Source of the DNA: Clostridiaceae bacterium
GTDB taxonomy: Bacteria > Bacillota > Clostridia > Oscillospirales > Acutalibacteraceae
NCBI GenBank assembly: GCA_016290665.1
Contig: JAEEUW010000014.1
Location: 1-34,641, forward strand
Direction of reading: 5' to 3'
DNA: 34,641 nt
A model generated the notes under the pieces. The model had not been told where the DNA came from and searched no databases. It was given only the letters and a program-made list of their open reading frames with translations. A program made the translations under genes and the position numbers. This document shows, piece by piece, positions 2,793-25,817 of this stretch (position 1 is its first letter; the number at the start of each line of letters is the position of its first letter).

Positions 2793-2938
2793 CCGTCGTA
2801 TACGCATGAAACTTTGCTTCTTGTTGTGCTGAATATGATAAACGTCCGTTTTTGAGTTCAAAAAAAGGCATAGAATTGCAACGTCCCTTTATTCGAACCA
2901 TAAGTGTTCAATTAGTTGGACTTTCGTCACCCAATCAC

Positions 2939-2979
2939 AAAGGAAAAACCGTTCCAAAAGGAACGGTTTTTCCTTTGGC
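2939..2979. repeat. Hairpin/terminator-like repeat, copy B
   Basis: AAAGGAAAAACCGTTCC-AAAA-GGAACGGTTTTTCCTTT; differs from copy A at two positions that pair with each other. Confidence 0.85.
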
Positions 2980-3121
2980 CTCAGATATTTGCCCCGAACC
3001 ACCGACCCCGCGGTTGTGCAAAGCCGTGGGCGGCGCGTCAGCGCCCGCATGCGTGCTGTTTTTTGCCTATCTCCGATGGGCGGGCGGCTCGTTCTCTTTT
3101 GCAGGCGGTTCCCCGCGCCCC

Positions 3122-4608: not shown

Positions 4609-5514
4609 ATGTCCGGCAAAAAAAGAACTTTCAAGGATTACGCGGTGCTGTGCCTGTCGGTGCTGGCGGGCAACGCGCTTCTGGCGTTTCTGGTGGCGGC
4701 GTTCGTGCTGCCGCGGGGCATCCTTATGGGCGGCACCACCGGCATCGGTATCGTGCTGTCTAAGGTGACGGGGCAGGATACGGCGCTGTTCGTGTTTTTG
4801 CTCAACGTGGCGCTGCTGCTGTTCGGGCTGTTCGTGCTGGGCCGGCGCTTCTTCTTTTCCACCGCGGCGAGCTCGGTGCTCTATCCGGCGTTTCTGGCGC
4901 TGTTTCAGCGGATCCCCGGCATCGGCGCGCTGACCGACAACGACCTGCTCGCGGCCATCTTTGCGGGCTGTCTGCTGGGCGTGTCGCTCGGGCTCGTGAT
5001 GCGCGTCGGCTCCTCCACGGGCGGCATGGACGTGGTCAACCTCGTGTTCCACAAGTGGTTCCATTTCCCCATCGCCGTGCTGGTGTGGGTGTCGGACCTC
5101 GTCGTGATCGGCGGACAGGCGATCTTCGCCGGGCCAGAAAGCACGCTGCTCGGTATCCTCGTGCTGCTGCTCGAGACCATCGTGCTCGACCGGGTGATGC
5201 TGCTGGGTCAGTCGCAGCTGCAGATCTACGTGATCTCCGACAAATTCGAGCAGATCCGCGCGCGGCTGCTGCATGAGCTGGGCCTCGGCGTCACGATGAC
5301 GCTGATTGAAACGGGCCTTTTGGGCAAGCAGCAAAAGGGCGTGCTGTGCGTGGTGCACCCGCGCCAGCTTTACGCCGTGACGGCCTGCATCCGCGAAGAG
5401 GACCCGCTCTCGTTTATCACGATCACCAAGATCAAGGAGGTCCACGGCAAGGGCTTCACGCTGGAGCGCACCGCGGCGCAGATTGAAAATAACAGCTCCG
5501 AACCCGGAGCATGA
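4609..5514 (+). CDS. YitT family membrane protein (DUF161 + C-terminal DUF2179)
   Basis: VLPRGILMGGTTGIGIVLSK, GSSTGGMDVVNL and C-terminal FITITKIKEVHGKGF are typical of YitT. Confidence 0.88.
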   Translation: MSGKKRTFKDYAVLCLSVLAGNALLAFLVAAFVLPRGILMGGTTGIGIVLSKVTGQDTALFVFLLNVALLLFGLFVLGRRFFFSTAASSVLYPAFLALFQRIPGIGALTDNDLLAAIFAGCLLGVSLGLVMRVGSSTGGMDVVNLVFHKWFHFPIAVLVWVSDLVVIGGQAIFAGPESTLLGILVLLLETIVLDRVMLLGQSQLQIYVISDKFEQIRARLLHELGLGVTMTLIETGLLGKQQKGVLCVVHPRQLYAVTACIREEDPLSFITITKIKEVHGKGFTLERTAAQIENNSSEPGA

Positions 5515-5527
5515 AAGGAAGATATTT

Positions 5528-5965
5528 ATGATGAAAGCATTTTTCGCCAAGATCACGGCCTTTTTCCTCGCGATCCTCGCGTTCTTCGGCATTGCGCCCA
5601 AGACGCCCGCGCCGGAGGTCACCATCGGCAACGACGGCTACGCCATCATCGAGCACGGCGTGCAGTTTTCGTTTGACGCCAACGCGACCACGGGCTTCAG
5701 CTGGACGCAGAAGACCGACGGCGGCAGCGTGATTCTGGAAAAGGAATTTTACACCTCTCCCAAAACGGAAGAGCACGGCGTTGCCATGGCGGGGCAGGGC
5801 GGCACGCAGTATTACAACTACCGCGCCGTGACCCCCGGCACGACCACCATCACCTTCACCTATCAGCGGCCGTGGGAGCAGGAGCCGCCGGCGAAGACCT
5901 ATGTGGCGGTCGTGGTTGTGGCGAACGATCTGTCGGTACAGGTTGCGAGCTTTGAGGCGAAGTAA
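5528..5965 (+). CDS. Exported protease inhibitor I42 (chagasin-like) domain protein
   Basis: Three chagasin loop motifs in order: NATTGFSW, GQGGTQYYNY, YQRPWEQ; N-terminal hydrophobic segment. Confidence 0.8.
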   Translation: MMKAFFAKITAFFLAILAFFGIAPKTPAPEVTIGNDGYAIIEHGVQFSFDANATTGFSWTQKTDGGSVILEKEFYTSPKTEEHGVAMAGQGGTQYYNYRAVTPGTTTITFTYQRPWEQEPPAKTYVAVVVVANDLSVQVASFEAK

Positions 5966-6021: not shown

Positions 6022-6046
6022 TTGCTTTTTCGGGGCGGATATGATA
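6022..6046 (+). promoter_or_regulatory. Promoter-like block of LRR leader copy 1
   Basis: TTGCTTTTT...TATGATA, same internal spacing (18 nt start-to-start) as 17841-17865. Confidence 0.6.
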
Positions 6047-6055
6047 CACTGAAAG

Positions 6056-6216
6056 CGCCAAACAATAAACGGATCCCCCGCATATCCAAATACAAAACGA
6101 GACACACTCTGAAAAAAGTGCGTCCCGCTTCTTCGTTTTGTATTTGGAACAAGGGGTTTATTGTTTGGCGACAATGGGACGGCATTTTTTGTGCGTCCCA
6201 TGCGGACGCATTTTTT
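6056..6216 (+). ncRNA. Structured 5' leader RNA, copy 1 (candidate cis-regulatory RNA)
   Basis: 15-bp stem 6056-6070/6156-6170; 16-bp stem 6085-6100/6133-6148; apical GACACACT/AGTGCGTC; alternative hairpin 6174-6181/6194-6201; terminator TGCGTCC-CATGC-GGACGCA-TTTTTT 6192-6216. Confidence 0.65.
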
Positions 6217-6238
6217 GTTGTAAAAAGGAGATTTGGTT

Positions 6239-8401
6239 ATGAAGAAAATCAGTATTTGCATCGCGGCGATTTTGCTGCTCTGCTGTGCACTTTGTCTTTC
6301 CGCACTTGCGGCGGAAACACAAACGGTGGACGGCGTGGAATATCAGTATGAAGTCGTTGACGGCGCCGCCCGCATCCTGAGCTATACGCCCGCCCCGACG
6401 GAATGGACCGTGCCGGAGACGCTCGGCGGCGCTCCCGTCGGGACCGTTGCCGTGCTGATGCCGCAGACCCGCAGCCTGATTTTGCCCGCCACGGTGAAAA
6501 CCGTTACCGAAAACGTGCGCAACGGGTCCTCCATGCTGCTGTCGATCTCCGTCAGCGAAGACAACCCGGCGCTTTGTCTCGTGGACGGTGTGTTGCTGAA
6601 CAAAGAGAAGACCCAACTGGTGCTTTATCCGAAGGCCGGCGGCCCTTCGTCGTTTTGCGTGCCCGAAACCGTGACTTCCGTTCCCGCCGGGTTCTTCCAA
6701 AGCTGCAATCTGCTGGAAGAAATCAGCCTGCCTGCGGGCGTCACTGAGATCGGGGCCAATGCGTTTGCCTATTGCGAAGCCCTGCGCAGCGTCGCCTTTG
6801 CCGGCGCGCCCCAAAAGATCGGCAAGGACGCCTTTCTGCGCTGCAGCGCGCTCGCCGGCGTGGACCTCGGCGACCCGGTCCATTGGTGCGAAACCGATTT
6901 TGCCGACCGGCAGGCCAGCCCCATGCATCTGAAACCGCAGGTGCTTTCCGGCGGCAGCCCGCTGACCGCGCTCAGTGTGCCGGAGCCCGTTGCAAAGGTT
7001 TCCGCCTGGGCGTTTGAAAACTGCGCCGATCTGCAAACGCTGACGATGGCCGACAGCGTGAAGTCGATTGGGGACTACGCCTTCCGCGGCTGCAGTGCGC
7101 TGCGCGACCTGACCATGCCCCGTTATCTGGAAGCGGTCGGCGAAAAGGCCTTTGCCGGCTGTGACGCGCTGGAATCGTTCCTACTGCCGTTGAGTCTGAA
7201 AACGCTCGGCAAAAACGTGCTGACCGCCGCCAGCCATCTGAAGGTCCTTGCCGACTGCAGCGGCCTGATGGAGCTGCTCGGATTTGAAGAAATGATGCCC
7301 GCCGGTTCGCGCCTGTTTGCGCGCGCGGGCGCCGTGATGCCGGATCTGTTCCTTTTCCGCGGCATCTCGGTGACGGAGCTGCACCCCGAAGACTGCGCGC
7401 GCGGCATCCATTGTCTGGACTATTACACGCCGACGGTCATCCGCAAGCCCGCCTGCACGGTTAGCGGGCAGGAAGCCGTGGAGTGCTTGCTTTGCAACGA
7501 GATCGTCACCCGCGACACCGGGTATGCGCATCACGAGATGGAATATACGACCGTCCCGGCAACGACCGAAGCCGACGGCGAGCTGCATTATCACTGCAAA
7601 AACTGCTCCTACGCCGCCGTGGACGTTCTGCCGCGCATCAAAACGATCAGGCAGCAGGGCACGGTCTGTTCCTATACCGGCAAGCCGACCGCCATTTCGT
7701 TTTACATCGTTCGAACCGACGGACGACAGCTTTATTTGGGCGAAAACTACACGGTGCGTTATGAAAACAACACGGAGGTCGGCACCGCCACGGCGACCGT
7801 CGTTTTCAAGGGCCTTTATGCCGGCGCCCACCGCTTCACCTATCAGATCGTGCCGGCCAAGACGGCTTTGGTGAAGCAAAAGGACGCCTCGGCCTCTTCC
7901 GTCACGATCGCGTGGCGGAAGGTCAAGGGCGCGCAAAGCTACAAGGTGTATCGCTACGACAAGGCGCAAAAGTCCTACGTTCCGGTTTTGGAAACGGCCA
8001 AAAACAAAGCGAAGCTGAAAAAGCTGGAAAGCGGAACGACCTACAGCCTGCGCGTCTATGCCGTCCGCAAGGGCGTGCAGGGCGTGAGCAGCGCGGTGCT
8101 GAAGGCGGCCACCGCGCCGACCGCCCCGCAGGTCAAGCTCAAAGCGCTGAAGGGCGGCGTGCTGCGCGTTTCCTGGACGCGGCCGAAGGGCAGCAGCGGC
8201 TATCTTTTGCTGATCGGCGTGGATCCGACGATGGAAGAAGCGGTTGTGGCTGAAATCCCCGACAAAAAGACCAACCGGCTCGACCTGCCCGGCTTGCCGC
8301 GCGGCGAGACCTATTACGTGCAGGTGCTCGCCTACCGCGCCGTGAACGACGACGCGGTGCTCTCCAAGCCCTCCGGGCTCGCAAAGCTGCGGCTGGCATA
8401 A
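6239..8401 (+). CDS. Exported BspA-type (LRR_5) leucine-rich repeat protein with C-terminal FN3-like domains
   Basis: Signal peptide MKKISICIAAILLLCCALCLSALA; LRR_5 repeats (IGANAFAYCEALRSVAF, IGDYAFRGCSALRDLTMP); CxxC spacer; FN3-like tail. AAAAAGGAG RBS. Confidence 0.88.
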   Translation: MKKISICIAAILLLCCALCLSALAAETQTVDGVEYQYEVVDGAARILSYTPAPTEWTVPETLGGAPVGTVAVLMPQTRSLILPATVKTVTENVRNGSSMLLSISVSEDNPALCLVDGVLLNKEKTQLVLYPKAGGPSSFCVPETVTSVPAGFFQSCNLLEEISLPAGVTEIGANAFAYCEALRSVAFAGAPQKIGKDAFLRCSALAGVDLGDPVHWCETDFADRQASPMHLKPQVLSGGSPLTALSVPEPVAKVSAWAFENCADLQTLTMADSVKSIGDYAFRGCSALRDLTMPRYLEAVGEKAFAGCDALESFLLPLSLKTLGKNVLTAASHLKVLADCSGLMELLGFEEMMPAGSRLFARAGAVMPDLFLFRGISVTELHPEDCARGIHCLDYYTPTVIRKPACTVSGQEAVECLLCNEIVTRDTGYAHHEMEYTTVPATTEADGELHYHCKNCSYAAVDVLPRIKTIRQQGTVCSYTGKPTAISFYIVRTDGRQLYLGENYTVRYENNTEVGTATATVVFKGLYAGAHRFTYQIVPAKTALVKQKDASASSVTIAWRKVKGAQSYKVYRYDKAQKSYVPVLETAKNKAKLKKLESGTTYSLRVYAVRKGVQGVSSAVLKAATAPTAPQVKLKALKGGVLRVSWTRPKGSSGYLLLIGVDPTMEEAVVAEIPDKKTNRLDLPGLPRGETYYVQVLAYRAVNDDAVLSKPSGLAKLRLA

Positions 8402-14977: not shown

Positions 14978-17740
14978 ATGAAACACGTGAAACAAACGCT
15001 CGCGATCCTGCTGACCGTACTGATGATCGTGACGGCCGTGCCGTTCGCCGCGTTCGGCGCCGGAAACGACCACACGCACAATTTCATCGACCAGGATCAC
15101 ACTGCAAAGTATCTCAAGTCCGAGGCCACCTGCAGCGCAAAGGCCGTCTATTATCTTTCCTGCCAGACCTGCCATATCAGCGCAAAGGGTATTGACGAAA
15201 GCAAAACCTTTGAGTACGGCGAAAAGAACGCGACCAATCACCCGACAGACAAGATCGAAGTGACGAAAGCCGCACAGGATCCGACGTGCATGAGCTCCGG
15301 CTGGACCGAGGAAAAGACCTGCAAGGCCTGCAACAAGGTCGTTGTGGCGTCCACGCTGATCGCCAGCGATCCGAACGCCCACAAGTCGGCGGACGGCAAG
15401 ACGGCGGACTGCACGCACAGCATCGTCTGCGCGGCCTGCGGTCAGACGATTGCGGTGAATCCCGACAATCATCCCGCAGACAAGATCAAAGTGATCAAAA
15501 AAGGAAAGGCCGCAACCTGCGGCGAAGCGGGCGTGAACGATATTCTTTATTGCAGCGCCTGTGAAAAGACCATTCAGGAAGACACCGCCATCCCCGCGAC
15601 CGGCAACCACACCGGCGGCACCGCCACCTGCGTCGAGCAGGCGACCTGCACTGTCTGCGGACAGAAATACGGCACGGTCGACGCGAACAACCACGACTTT
15701 GAAAAGGTTGCCGCCGTTGCGCCCAGCTGCACCGAAGCGGGCAACATCGAGCACTGGAAGTGCAAGCGCGAAGGCTGCGGCAAGCTCTTTGTGGAAGAGA
15801 ACGGCCAGAAGAAGGAGACCACTGCCGAGGCGGTCAAGGTGAACGCCGACGGCACGACCCACAAGAGCCTGAAGCGCATCGCCGCCAAGGCCGCCACCTG
15901 CTCCGCCACGGGCAACATTGAATACTGGCACTGCGATGACTGCGGCTACTACTACAGCGACGCCGCCGCCACGCAGAAGATTGACCAGAGCGCAACGGTG
16001 ATTGCGAAAAAAGACCACACCTGGGGCAAGCTGACGCTGGTCAGCGGCAACTGCACCAACGGCGGCACGGCAGAGCACGAGTGCTCGGTCTGCCATTTCA
16101 AAGAGACGGTGACCGTCGTTGCCGGCAAGCACCCCGACGAGGCGAAGAAGACCACGAAGGGCAAGGCCGCGACCTGCACCGAAAAGGGTACGTCCGACGA
16201 GATCGTCTGCGAGCTTTGCGGCACGGTGATTCAGCAGTCGACGGAAGTCGCCGCGCTCGGCCATAATTACGAAAACGGCAAGGCGACCGGCAAGAACGAC
16301 GGCACCCACACCATCGCCTGCGTCCGCTGCGGCGCGGCGGGCGACCCGATCCCCTGCACCGACGAGAACAAAGACTGCAAGTGCGACGTCTGCAAGCAGC
16401 AGCTCGCCCACGTGTTCACCACCTATACCCCGGTCGGCGACGCGACCTGCGCGGCCGACGGCCACAAGAAAGCCATCTGCGACGTCTGCAAGGTCGCCGA
16501 AGACATCCAGATCGACGAGGGCTCCAAGGACAGCGCCCAGCACAAGTATGTCTGGACCAACCTGAACGACGCGACCTGCATCGCGAACGGTCACCGCAAG
16601 GGCGTCTGCTCGGTCTGCGGCGCCGAGGTGATGGAGGAGATCTCCGACACCGCGCTGGGCCACGTCGATTCCGACTGGCAGTATCCCGAAGGCTTTGACT
16701 GCGAAGTGGGCGGCAACCGCATCAGACGCTGCACCCGCTGCGGCGACATCACCGCGACCGAGCCCATCGAGGGCCGCGCCCACACGCCGGTCATCGATCC
16801 CGAGGTGACCAAGACCTGCACCGTGGACGGCAAGACCGCCGGTTCCCACTGCGACATCTGCGGCAAGATTCTCACCCCGCAGATCATCTTCCCGGCCGAG
16901 GGCCACAAGGCGAACGAAAACGGCTTCACCGTGACGAAGAAAGCCACCTGCACCGAAGCGGGCGAACAGACCGCGGTCTGCGGCGTCTGCGGCGAAACCT
17001 TCACCGAGACGATTCCGGCAACCGGCCACAGCTATGTGGATACCGTGGTTCCGCCGACCTGCGAAGGCGCCGGCTACACGCTGCATAAGTGCAAGACCTG
17101 CGGCGACCAGTTCAAGGAAAACATCACCTCCGCCACCGGCCACAAGATGGTCCAGAAGATCCGCCCGGCCACGACCGACGAAAACGGCAAGGTCGTGCTG
17201 ACCTGCTCGGTCTGCGGCAAGAAGCAGGCCTACAAGGTCTATCGCATCAAGAAGATCACCCTGTCCCAGACGACCTTCGCGCGCGACAGCAAGGCGCACA
17301 AGCCGTCCGTGACCATCACCGACGCCAAGGGCAACAAGCTGACCAAAAACGTGGATTACAAGCTGAAGTTCTCTTCCGGCCGCAAGAAGATCGGCACCTA
17401 CAAGGTGGTCATCACCTTTATGGGCGAATACAGCGGCAAGGTTACCCGCAGGTTCAAGATCGTGCCGCCCGTGGTGAAGGGCGTCAAGGCGGTTGCCGGC
17501 AAGGGCAGCGCCAAGCTCACCTGGACGCAGAACAAGTATGCTGATATCTATGTCGTCTATTGTGCCACCGCGAAGGACGGCAAGTACAAGAAGCTCGGCT
17601 CCACCACGAACCTGACCTATACCGCCGCGAAGCTGACGAGCGGCCAGACCTATTACTTCAAGGTCGCCGCCGTGCGCCGGCTGGATTCCGGCAACTACTA
17701 CAGCGCAGACTTCTCGATCAAAAAGGCCACGATTCAATAA
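14978..17740 (+). CDS. Exported Cys-rich CxxC-repeat protein with C-terminal Ig-like/FN3-like module
   Basis: Signal peptide; about 17 CxxC motifs in ATCTEAG...CxVCG...GH units; C-terminus homologous to that of the 18078 ORF. Confidence 0.85.
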   Translation: MKHVKQTLAILLTVLMIVTAVPFAAFGAGNDHTHNFIDQDHTAKYLKSEATCSAKAVYYLSCQTCHISAKGIDESKTFEYGEKNATNHPTDKIEVTKAAQDPTCMSSGWTEEKTCKACNKVVVASTLIASDPNAHKSADGKTADCTHSIVCAACGQTIAVNPDNHPADKIKVIKKGKAATCGEAGVNDILYCSACEKTIQEDTAIPATGNHTGGTATCVEQATCTVCGQKYGTVDANNHDFEKVAAVAPSCTEAGNIEHWKCKREGCGKLFVEENGQKKETTAEAVKVNADGTTHKSLKRIAAKAATCSATGNIEYWHCDDCGYYYSDAAATQKIDQSATVIAKKDHTWGKLTLVSGNCTNGGTAEHECSVCHFKETVTVVAGKHPDEAKKTTKGKAATCTEKGTSDEIVCELCGTVIQQSTEVAALGHNYENGKATGKNDGTHTIACVRCGAAGDPIPCTDENKDCKCDVCKQQLAHVFTTYTPVGDATCAADGHKKAICDVCKVAEDIQIDEGSKDSAQHKYVWTNLNDATCIANGHRKGVCSVCGAEVMEEISDTALGHVDSDWQYPEGFDCEVGGNRIRRCTRCGDITATEPIEGRAHTPVIDPEVTKTCTVDGKTAGSHCDICGKILTPQIIFPAEGHKANENGFTVTKKATCTEAGEQTAVCGVCGETFTETIPATGHSYVDTVVPPTCEGAGYTLHKCKTCGDQFKENITSATGHKMVQKIRPATTDENGKVVLTCSVCGKKQAYKVYRIKKITLSQTTFARDSKAHKPSVTITDAKGNKLTKNVDYKLKFSSGRKKIGTYKVVITFMGEYSGKVTRRFKIVPPVVKGVKAVAGKGSAKLTWTQNKYADIYVVYCATAKDGKYKKLGSTTNLTYTAAKLTSGQTYYFKVAAVRRLDSGNYYSADFSIKKATIQ

Positions 17741-17840: not shown

Positions 17841-17865
17841 TTGCTTTTTTCCTGAAAATATGATA
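17841..17865 (+). promoter_or_regulatory. Promoter-like block of LRR leader copy 2
   Basis: TTGCTTTTTT...TATGATA with spacing identical to 6022-6046. Confidence 0.6.
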
Positions 17866-17874
17866 AAGTGAATA

Positions 17875-18041
17875 CGCCAAACATTTCGCATAAATCTCTG
17901 CAATTTTCACGTATGTATTTTTACCTTTTGGTAGAAGTACATGCTCATTTTGGCATATGTGAATATTGCTGAGAGACTTGTTTGGCGACAGTTTGAGCTA
18001 TGTATTTTTACAGTGCGTAGCTTTTGCTGCGCACTTTTTTT
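17875..18041 (+). ncRNA. Structured 5' leader RNA, copy 2 (candidate cis-regulatory RNA)
   Basis: Closing stem CGCCAAACA (17875-17883)/TGTTTGGCG (17979-17987); inner stem 17895-17915/17954-17974; terminator AGTGCGTAGC-TTTT-GCTGCGCACTTTTTTT 18012-18041. Confidence 0.65.
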
Positions 18042-18077: not shown

Positions 18078-20759
18078 ATGAAAAAGACACAACACATTCC
18101 GGCTGTGCTTTTCGCACTGCTGGCGATGTTCCTTTGCTTCGTTTTTTGCGCTTCCGCGCAGGACGCAAAAAGCGGCAGCTGCGGCGAAGCGCTGCAATGG
18201 ACGCTGGAAGACGGCACGCTGACCGTCAGCGGCACCGGCGAAATGGCGGATTATTCCCGCGATCAGGCGCCGTGGGCGGCGCAGACGGTGACCCGCGTTA
18301 TCGTGGAAGAAGGCGTGTCGTCCATCAGCGAAAACGCCTTCCGGCTCCATTTCAGTCTGGAACAGGTGACGCTGCCGGCATCGCTGCGCTCCATTGGCAA
18401 GACGGCGTTCTGGCAATGCGTTTCGCTGCAGAAGGCGGAACTGGCCGAAGGGCTGCAGACCATCGGCGCGCAGGCGTTCAAAGGCTGCAAGGCGCTGCAG
18501 GAGATCACGCTGCCGCAGTCGCTGGAATCCATCGGAGACGAAGCCTTCAGCGGCTGTGAAGCGCTGCCGCTGCTTTCGCTCGGGCCGAAGATGAAAACGG
18601 TGCCGGCTGGGGCGTTCAGCGACTGCAAGGCACTGCGCACCGCAACGCTTGACGACGCGATCACCGCCGTCGGCGACAACGCGTTTTTCCGCTGCGCCGC
18701 GCTGCAGCAGATTGCGCTGCCGCAAAGCCTGCAGACGATCGGCAGGAACGCGTTTGCCGAAACCGGCCTGTCGGCGGTCTCGCTGCCGCCGGCGGTGACA
18801 GAATTGGGAGACGCCGCTTTTTCGGGCTGCAACGCCTTGGAGGCGGTGACATTCCCCGACGGTCTGACGACTATCGGCAGCGGTGCGTTTATGAACTGCG
18901 CCGCGCTGAAAGAGGCACAGATTCCAAACAGCGTGACAACGCTCGGCGGCTCCGCGTTTTCGTCCTGCGCGGCGTTGACAAAGGTGACGCTGCCCAACAT
19001 GCTCACGGCGGTTCCCGAAAACTGCTTTTCCGGCTGCGCGCTGCTCAAAGAAGCTGCGCTGTCGGACGGCCTGACCGCGATCGGGACAGGAAGCTTTTCC
19101 GCCTGCGCGGCGCTGGAAAGCCTGCAGATCCCGGCAACTGTGACGGCAATCGGCGCGGCAGCGTTCCGGGGCTGCGTGTCGCTGGAAACCATAGAGCTTC
19201 CTGCCGCCGTCTCCGCCGTAGAAGCGGAGTCGTTTTCCGGCTGCAGCAAGCTGCAGAAAGCAACACTGCCGCAGCAGGCGACACAGATCGGCGACAAAGC
19301 GTTTGCTTCGTGCGGCTTGCTGAAGGACGTTGTTTTTCCGCTGCAGCTGAAGACCATCGGCAAAGAAGCCTTCCTGCGCTGCTATGAACTCAAAGTGTTG
19401 GCGTTGCCGCAAGGGCTGACCGCCATCGGCAAAGACGCGTTTGAAGGAACGGGCTGTCTGGAAGACCCCGAAAACCGAATCGACAGCTGCGTTTACGCCG
19501 GCAGTTATCTTCTGCAGGGCGATCCGGGCCGGACGACGTATGCGGTCCGAGAGGGGACGACCCTGATTGCGGATGACGCGCTGGTCTTAACGGACAAGCT
19601 GGAGACGATCACGCTGCCGGAAACGCTGACTTCGTTCGGCAATGCCGACTTTTCTGCCTGCACGGCGCTGCAGAAGGTAAACTACGGCGGTACGGAAGCA
19701 CAGTGGCACGCGCTGACGGCGGGCGGCAGGAAGCCGCTTGAACCGCTGGCGGCGGCCGAAGTGCATTGCAAAGCCGCAGACGGCAGCACGCTGGTGCTGT
19801 CTGCCGTTCCGATGCCGGAAACGGAATCCACCTGCACGGTGTGCGGCACCTACGGCGGCAAACAGTGCAGCAACTGCGGCGCGGTGGTTGTTCAGCCGAA
19901 GGAAAAGGGCATAGCGGCACACGACTGGGAAGAAAAAGAGAACCGGGGCGCCACCTGCGTGAAAAAGGGCACCGTCGTCTTTGTTTGCACCGTGTGCGGC
20001 GAAACCAGCACCGTGCAGCGGCTGATGCCGGGCGTGCATATGAACACGGGAACCGTTCCGGCAACGGAACCGACGTGCAAATCATTTGGTTACACCGAGG
20101 GCGTTTATTGCTACGACTGCCACAAGTATCTTTCCGGCCATCAGCAGCTGCCGATGGGGCACCGTTATACGGAGACCCTGAAGCCGGCCACCATGGAAAA
20201 GAACGGCAAGATTGTCAGGACCTGCGTCTACTGCCGGATGAAAAGCTCAACGCTGATCTATCGCGTTCAAAAGATCTCGCTTTCCGGTACGCGCTTCGTG
20301 TATGACGGCAAATCGCACAAGCCTTCGGTGACCGTTACCGACACCAAGGGCAACAAGCTCGTGAAGAAAGTCGATTACAGACTAAACTATTCTTCCGGCA
20401 GAAAAGCGGTCGGCATCTACACGGTCACCGTCACCTTCCAGGGCAACTATGCGGGAGAAAAAACGCTGAGCTTCAAAATTGTTCCGCCCGCGGTCAAGAA
20501 CCTGAAAGTGACCGCCGGCAAGAACAGCGCCAAGCTGACCTGGGCAAAGAACAAGCAAACCGATCTCTACATAATCTATCGGGCCGCTGCAAAAGACGGC
20601 AAGTATAAAAAGCTCGGTACTGCCAAAGAGCCGGCGTATACCGCGGAAAAGCTGACGGGCGGCAAGGTCTACTACTTCAAAGTAGTTGCTGTTCGCAAGC
20701 TGGATTCCGGCAATCTATACAGCGCCGATTCCGCGATTAAAAAAGTCAGAGTGAAATAA
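18078..20759 (+). CDS. Exported BspA-type (LRR_5) leucine-rich repeat protein with CxxC modules and C-terminal Ig-like/FN3-like module
   Basis: AAGGAGG RBS; signal peptide; many repeats of form LPxxLxxIGxxAFxxCxxLxxV; CxxC modules; C-terminal FN3-like. Confidence 0.9.
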   Translation: MKKTQHIPAVLFALLAMFLCFVFCASAQDAKSGSCGEALQWTLEDGTLTVSGTGEMADYSRDQAPWAAQTVTRVIVEEGVSSISENAFRLHFSLEQVTLPASLRSIGKTAFWQCVSLQKAELAEGLQTIGAQAFKGCKALQEITLPQSLESIGDEAFSGCEALPLLSLGPKMKTVPAGAFSDCKALRTATLDDAITAVGDNAFFRCAALQQIALPQSLQTIGRNAFAETGLSAVSLPPAVTELGDAAFSGCNALEAVTFPDGLTTIGSGAFMNCAALKEAQIPNSVTTLGGSAFSSCAALTKVTLPNMLTAVPENCFSGCALLKEAALSDGLTAIGTGSFSACAALESLQIPATVTAIGAAAFRGCVSLETIELPAAVSAVEAESFSGCSKLQKATLPQQATQIGDKAFASCGLLKDVVFPLQLKTIGKEAFLRCYELKVLALPQGLTAIGKDAFEGTGCLEDPENRIDSCVYAGSYLLQGDPGRTTYAVREGTTLIADDALVLTDKLETITLPETLTSFGNADFSACTALQKVNYGGTEAQWHALTAGGRKPLEPLAAAEVHCKAADGSTLVLSAVPMPETESTCTVCGTYGGKQCSNCGAVVVQPKEKGIAAHDWEEKENRGATCVKKGTVVFVCTVCGETSTVQRLMPGVHMNTGTVPATEPTCKSFGYTEGVYCYDCHKYLSGHQQLPMGHRYTETLKPATMEKNGKIVRTCVYCRMKSSTLIYRVQKISLSGTRFVYDGKSHKPSVTVTDTKGNKLVKKVDYRLNYSSGRKAVGIYTVTVTFQGNYAGEKTLSFKIVPPAVKNLKVTAGKNSAKLTWAKNKQTDLYIIYRAAAKDGKYKKLGTAKEPAYTAEKLTGGKVYYFKVVAVRKLDSGNLYSADSAIKKVRVK

Positions 20760-25587: not shown

Positions 25588-25817
25588 GGGCATAGGTGGG
25601 TATAACTATGCCATCTTGCAACCAAACGATATGCGATGATGCGGGAGGTGGCTGCCCTCTGAGGCAGGGAATTTCCGCGGAGTATGTCCGATTCAAAACC
25701 GGGCGATCAATATGTTGCGCGATCAGCCGCTTCTTGCGTGGGCTCTGCCCAGCGGCCGACAGGCGTAAACTGCGCTTTTTTGGGCGCCATGCCGGAAATA
25801 TTGCCTTTCCGGTTTTT
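25588..25817 (+). promoter_or_regulatory. Structured S10-operon leader with terminator (attenuator-like)
   Basis: GGCATAG/CTATGCC and nested GCGG...CTGCC/GGCAG...CCGC hairpins, then CCGGAAA-TATTGCC-TTTCCGG-TTTTT at 25792-25817. Confidence 0.6.

Follow-up and report, generated by a model that had tools for sequence, protein, structure and literature searches.

A family of probable transcription-attenuation leaders with a proposed b/c strand exchange in gut Clostridia

Overview

We describe a family of RNA elements in Clostridia that we believe to be transcription-attenuation leaders, in which the exchange of partners between two strands, b and c, would set the balance of termination and read-through. 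We put the probability of this reading at roughly 80%. Judged from sequence and covariation, the parts of the element, their predicted mutual exclusivity, their conservation and their position between a promoter and a start codon are clear, and the switch probably decides whether transcription stops or runs on into the gene. We started from a window of 34,641 nucleotides (assembly GCA_016290665.1 of a Clostridiaceae bacterium, contig JAEEUW010000014.1), which contains two copies of the element. All of the sequences that we used come from MAGs.

Two copies in the window

Copy 1 occupies positions 6022–6216 of the forward strand. Its promoter (6022–6050) has the -35 box TTGCTT at 6022–6027, a spacer of 17 bp and an extended -10, TGATACACT, at 6042–6050 (TGA-TACACT, with TACACT at 6045–6050). 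The extended -10 is 12 nt 5' of the G at 6057 in the hairpin that we call P1, which would place the transcription start at P1 itself. The P1 hairpin domain (6056–6170) is closed by a stem of CGCCAAACAATAAAC (6056–6070) and GTTTATTGTTTGGCG (6156–6170) and has an inner stem, TCCAAATACAAAACGA, at 6085–6100/6133–6148. Both stems are 100% complementary, and they are among only 15 inverted repeats in the window that are at least 14 nt long and at most 200 nt apart. In the predicted fold, strand a (GACACACT, 6101–6108) is the 5' arm of an apical hairpin, and strand b (AAAAAAGTGCGTCCC, 6112–6126) can take either a or c as its partner. Strand c (ATGGGACGGCATTTTTT, 6174–6190) would be the 5' arm of an antiterminator, whose 3' arm is strand d (6191–6201; c:d pairs 6174–6184 with 6192–6201). 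Strand d is also the 5' arm of an intrinsic terminator, with strand e and the U run (6204–6216) as the 3' arm and U tract. The region 6050–6225 folds at -70.9 kcal/mol (z = -6.7), and none of 200 shuffles was as good. The start codon of the putatively regulated gene is 22 nt past the U run; this gene (6239–8401, forward strand) encodes an exported BspA-type LRR_5 and fn3 protein of 720 aa (Pfam LRR_5 6.4e-33, fn3 2.3e-13). Immediately 5' of copy 1 is a gene for a chagasin-family peptidase inhibitor I42 (5510–5965).

A preliminary description of this DNA, made from the letters alone, had proposed an imperfect hairpin of about 115 nt after a promoter-like block, with a 15-bp closing stem and a 16-bp inner stem, and we found all of its pairings where it had placed them. 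It had also pointed out two mutually exclusive hairpins after P1, ATGGGACG (6174–6181) with CGTCCCAT (6194–6201) against TGCGTCC (6192–6198) with GGACGCA (6204–6210) and six U (6211–6216), and both are present, with energies in copy 1 of -15.7 for c:d and -10.9 for d:e. A third competing pairing, which it had considered possible, is real and longer than claimed: it joins b (6112–6126) to c (6174–6190) at -16.6 kcal/mol.

The second copy (17841–18041, forward strand) is diverged, and its likeness to copy 1 is limited to the closing stem and the linker. Its fold has a z of -8.1. The promoter (17841–17869) consists of TTGCTT at 17841–17846, 17 bp and TAAAGT at 17864–17869, and the P1 hairpin domain (17875–17987) has the base CGCCAAACA/TGTTTGGCG. 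Strand b (GTAGAAGTACATGCTC, 17931–17946) forms 16 pairs with strand c (17992–18011), with one bulge, at -17.1 kcal/mol. Because strand c and strand a (17911–17927) both carry ATGTATTTTTAC, which is complementary to b, they compete for b. Strands d and e with the U run make up the terminator (18013–18041), and the gene that follows (18078–20759, forward strand) encodes an exported BspA-type LRR_5 protein of 893 aa (Pfam LRR_5 1.4e-120). The genome has four copies in all, the two beyond the window being at G000:C149 and C129. An LRR_5 protein follows three of the four; the remaining gene encodes a product whose start resembles a signal peptide and whose only match, to fn3, is marginal.

Several other features of the window are worth recording. 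The gene at 14978–17740 encodes a 920-aa protein with no Pfam match and has no element 5' of it; over its final ~500 nt it shares 72% identity with the end of the LRR gene at 18078–20759. Positions 25628–25709 are a known Rfam element, the S10-Clostridia ribosomal protein leader RF03136. At 383–453 and 2938–3008 lie two strong, near-identical terminator hairpins (CAAAG(A/G)AAAAACCGTTCC...), with 82% identity over 71 nt.

Recurrence and shared anatomy

BLASTN with copy 1 against 59 relatives gave 22 places in 10 genomes, with at most five per genome. We then used a covariance model, R1, that holds the last 60 nt only (the end of P1, the linker, c, d and e). For the genus, R1 placed the element in 28 of 34 genomes, the per-genome maximum being 19 copies; the corresponding counts are 71 of 297 for the order and 49 of 288 for the class. 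A 249-genome sample of the phylum, which served as the negative control and also includes a few class members, yielded no genome besides the window's own. When 85,462 species were scanned with a pattern, nearly all of the matches listed were Clostridia, many of them from herbivore guts. A Delftia-labelled locus among the 80 matches that were rescored was not confirmed by the covariance model, and a Bradyrhizobium-labelled locus is among the matches listed outside those 80. The exact pattern GCCAAAC-gap-GTTTGGC, run over the family, matched in four other genomes, as chance could produce.

Rfam 15 had no family match at gathering score for both window copies and 20 representative loci, and relaxed thresholds (both window copies and L102) gave chance-level matches only, far below gathering. 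This bears out the preliminary description, which had recognised no named riboswitch class. We found no description of the family in the papers searched, although an unnamed earlier prediction is possible in the supplementary motif lists of PMC8040213. The element is in about a quarter of the sampled genomes of the order, common enough for its omission from Rfam to be a genuine gap.

In this way about 180 instances were gathered. R1 covers only the 3' part and had not contained their shared upstream anatomy, which makes that anatomy an independent test, and P1 and b are present in the upstream part that the model had not seen. The layout of the family is an extended -10, P1, an apical hairpin a:b, a long-range pairing b:c, an antiterminator c:d and a terminator d:e. 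A TAnnnT box lies exactly 12 nt 5' of the first P1 base in most instances, and the G at -14 is 86% conserved; this fixed spacing indicates that the RNA begins at P1. The base of P1 is usually GCCAAAC/GUUUGGC, followed by a GAC linker, and both are nearly invariant in the main class, with neighbouring pairs varying freely. Such near-invariance suggests recognition by a protein or ligand. P1 classes with a different 3' strand (GTGTGAC, GTTTCGC, GTGTGGT, GTTTAGC) mostly have their own complement and not that of other classes, and in the tandem copies of L215 the P1 stems are unrelated in sequence yet still pair. Near the P1 tip is the hairpin a:b, with a loop and 3' arm b like AAAAAUGCAAAUUCC, and downstream is strand c, like GGAGUUUGCGUUUUU, which is complementary to b. 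Conservation is highest in the P1 and b:c helices and in the GAC linker; at unpaired positions, for example the AATA after the 5' strand of P1, it is only ~55–75%, and no strongly conserved unpaired ligand pocket stands out. In the wider family (A3 columns 40–80, for example L102:4735-4943) there is an extra 5' sub-hairpin of the form AGGGATANTATACCCTTTTTT, a hairpin with a U run, which is possibly a pause site and is missing from the window copies and their subfamily.

Some genomes have arrays of complete units as well as up to 19 copies. Arrays of three to five promoter-hairpin-terminator units stand before one gene at L221:2630-3547 (minus strand), L214:1039-1655, L215:3238-3688 (minus strand) and L218:732-1219, and in the L221 array two sequence types alternate. 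A simple attenuator does not need these arrays and does not explain them.

Covariation and alternative pairings

The b:c duplex has -16.0 kcal/mol in native instances versus -10.8 kcal/mol when strands are swapped between instances, and it is perfect over 14 nt in 68 of 163 native cases versus 3.5% of swapped ones, the swapped controls holding many near-identical variants. Double changes in b:c alternate between GC, AT, CG and TA at several positions and across subfamilies. Strand b pairs with a too, which could account indirectly for some of the b:c covariation. The antiterminator c:d behaves similarly (-17.5 native versus -11.9 swapped), and is stronger than d:e in 157 of 176 instances.

We also made a 40-sequence full-length alignment of a closely related set, A3. 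Here P1, b:c and d:e are 98.6% paired, a figure that falls to 32–46% after slides of 1–3 columns, and none of 500 shuffles, which ignore relatedness, reached the observed covariation. The double changes in A3 are mostly in P1 and d:e, with few in b:c. For c:d, 98.1% is paired, and one pair shows an AU/UA exchange in many sequences. A held-out set of 26 loci came from families of the class outside the order. Every one of them has P1, with a median score of 14 against 6 for shuffled sequence, and the P1 bases include the compensated GCUAAAC/GUUUAGC and GCGAAAC/GUUUCGC. In 15 of the loci b:c is perfect.

The pairings a:b, b:c, c:d and d:e form a chain in which neighbours are predicted to be mutually exclusive. 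We summed energies for an ON and an OFF state, and the difference was +3.6 +/- 5.2 kcal/mol with the pseudoknot penalty excluded; totals this close are as expected of a switch.

Proposed mechanism

Two features of an attenuator are present: a G+C-rich hairpin and U run between promoter and start codon, and a conserved alternative antiterminator c:d that excludes the terminator. The preliminary description had read copy 1 as an undescribed transcription-attenuation leader, and this is still the best reading, given the lack of an Rfam match, the recurrence through the genus and across the class, the covariation in P1, b:c, c:d and d:e, and the nearby start codons.

We propose that the RNA would begin at the first base of the long closed hairpin P1. 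Near the P1 tip, strand b would be held in the small hairpin a:b, with c, d and e following P1. In the ON state b would stay in a:b, c:d would form, the terminator would be blocked and the gene would be transcribed. In the OFF state b would capture c, leaving d free for e, and the terminator would form and stop transcription. This b:c pairing would be a 14-bp pseudoknot extending backwards from the loop, in which the U run of c faces the A run in the loop of a:b. On this model b:c is an anti-antiterminator, and the shift of b between a and c would set expression, a balance that may be tipped by a factor (protein or small molecule) acting on P1. The direction of ON and OFF, actual termination and the factor acting on P1 are what we infer. 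Isolated c:d beats d:e in most instances, so that without b the gene would be read, and b:c removes c, which would allow termination.

Downstream genes

The start codon is less than 50 nt past the terminator in 92 of 169 instances and less than 100 nt in 120; 23 instances lack a credible one within 250 nt. It had been proposed that the leader controls a surface (LRR) protein. The two window copies do precede BspA-type LRR genes, but the family as a whole is not specific to such genes: LRR_5 was found by Pfam in only 19 of 120 downstream proteins, followed by DUF6273, CHAP, zinc ribbons and AMP-binding enzymes. The putative targets are diverse. An N-terminal hydrophobic segment, detected by crude hydropathy rather than by a signal-peptide predictor, is present in 65% of downstream proteins versus 22% of the remaining ORFs in these loci (odds ratio 6.8, p 3e-17), which suggests a regulon of mostly exported or membrane proteins. 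Scans of the downstream genes for defence systems and phage proteins gave no common theme. Related small proteins are encoded downstream of the elements at L109, L141, L143 and L174, several with a Cys-rich CLGNGEQGFECCCDECDYYLLCFPEFD-like stretch.

Alternative explanations

The dispersed, multi-copy inverted repeats could instead be a DNA-level element, such as a mobile repeat or recombination site with incidental RNA structure. The fixed promoter spacing and the compensatory changes in b:c, c:d and d:e go against this, BLAST of phage and plasmid collections gave no match to the element, and we regard it as very improbable. An integron-like recombination site, suggested by the repeat layout, was dropped because promoter, pairing switch and terminator are conserved. 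We give equally little credence to ribosome-mediated (leader peptide) or T-box attenuation. Alternative helices followed by a terminator would suit it in their general layout, but short ORFs preceded by an RBS are no commoner in the leaders (42 of 160) than in shuffled leaders (46 of 160), so the leader-peptide attenuator was rejected, and Rfam had no match to the T-box or another leader family. It is also unlikely, if less so, that the terminated RNA of ~160–200 nt is itself a functional small RNA, possibly trans-acting, with gene adjacency secondary. Arrays of complete units and the 23 instances that have no near gene would fit a small RNA. Against it, on the same strand start codons are concentrated in the first 100 nt past the terminator, so near that there is little room for another promoter, and the antiterminator c:d is conserved, which a pure small RNA would not need.

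Two further proposals concern the input of the attenuator and are not alternatives to attenuation. It is possible, although less likely than not, that the input is an RNA-binding protein, which would bind the P1 base (GCCAAAC/GUUUGGC-GAC) or a:b and tip the switch. The near-invariant base and linker beside freely varying pairs speak for such a protein; however, the base does change, with compensation, in the four classes given above, and we found no candidate for it. The NusG counts make LoaP unlikely, since nearly every genome in the genus has a single match, the 19-copy G178 among them. Slightly less likely than a protein is a metabolite or second-messenger riboswitch, a counterpart of the c-di-GMP riboswitch with P1 as aptamer and c/d/e as expression platform. 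The many copies, tandem copies, diverse exported targets and attenuator layout fit such a regulon, and PMC6200980 describes one of this kind, in which c-di-GMP riboswitches of C. difficile control many surface genes. Against this, conservation peaks in helices and linker and not in unpaired AATA, the window subfamily is without the extra 5' sub-hairpin, and Rfam gave no riboswitch match. Conservation gives few hints of an unpaired pocket for a ligand, so the label "riboswitch" is unproven for this family.

We also offer, tentatively, a broader extension of the attenuator reading: a class-wide multi-copy RNA of gut Clostridia in which the b/c exchange is a natural toehold-like switch that answers a global signal and sets much of the exported proteome, and in which the array RNAs may act in trans.

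Significance and comparison with known systems

BspA-type LRR and other exported proteins probably mediate the contact of gut Clostridia with their host and neighbours, and the papers searched gave nothing on how these mostly uncultured lineages control such genes. A single RNA family of clear anatomy here marks out one regulon per genome, offers directly testable mutants and hints at a signal.

In kind, the element as predicted belongs to the transcription attenuators. We found no described counterpart for a family that combines a 5'-terminal hairpin, strand exchange in cis, spread through the class and arrays of several units. The c-di-GMP (GEMM) riboswitches of Clostridioides difficile are one RNA class before many surface or exported genes, several acting on transcription termination (PMC6200980, PMC4759541). 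Our family resembles that regulon in its repetition before many surface or exported genes; unlike GEMM, it has no GEMM match in Rfam, and its conserved positions are helices instead of a pocket. Tandem copies of GEMM riboswitches are known elsewhere. LoaP processive antitermination uses a leader RNA hairpin in Firmicutes operons for terminator read-through and requires a NusG paralogue (PMC12691694). The hairpin in the leader and the predicted read-through are alike, but we did not see the paralogue here and the element has its own antiterminator. Like the attenuators of trp-type amino-acid operons, the family has a chain of overlapping exclusive helices with the terminator last, but it shows no leader ORF above chance and carries an extra helix a:b inside a closed 5'-terminal hairpin. 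In pT181/pIP501-type attenuators the trigger is an antisense RNA in trans. As in those, long-range pairing of a loop strand would pick antiterminator or terminator, with the difference that the strand, b, is here in cis.
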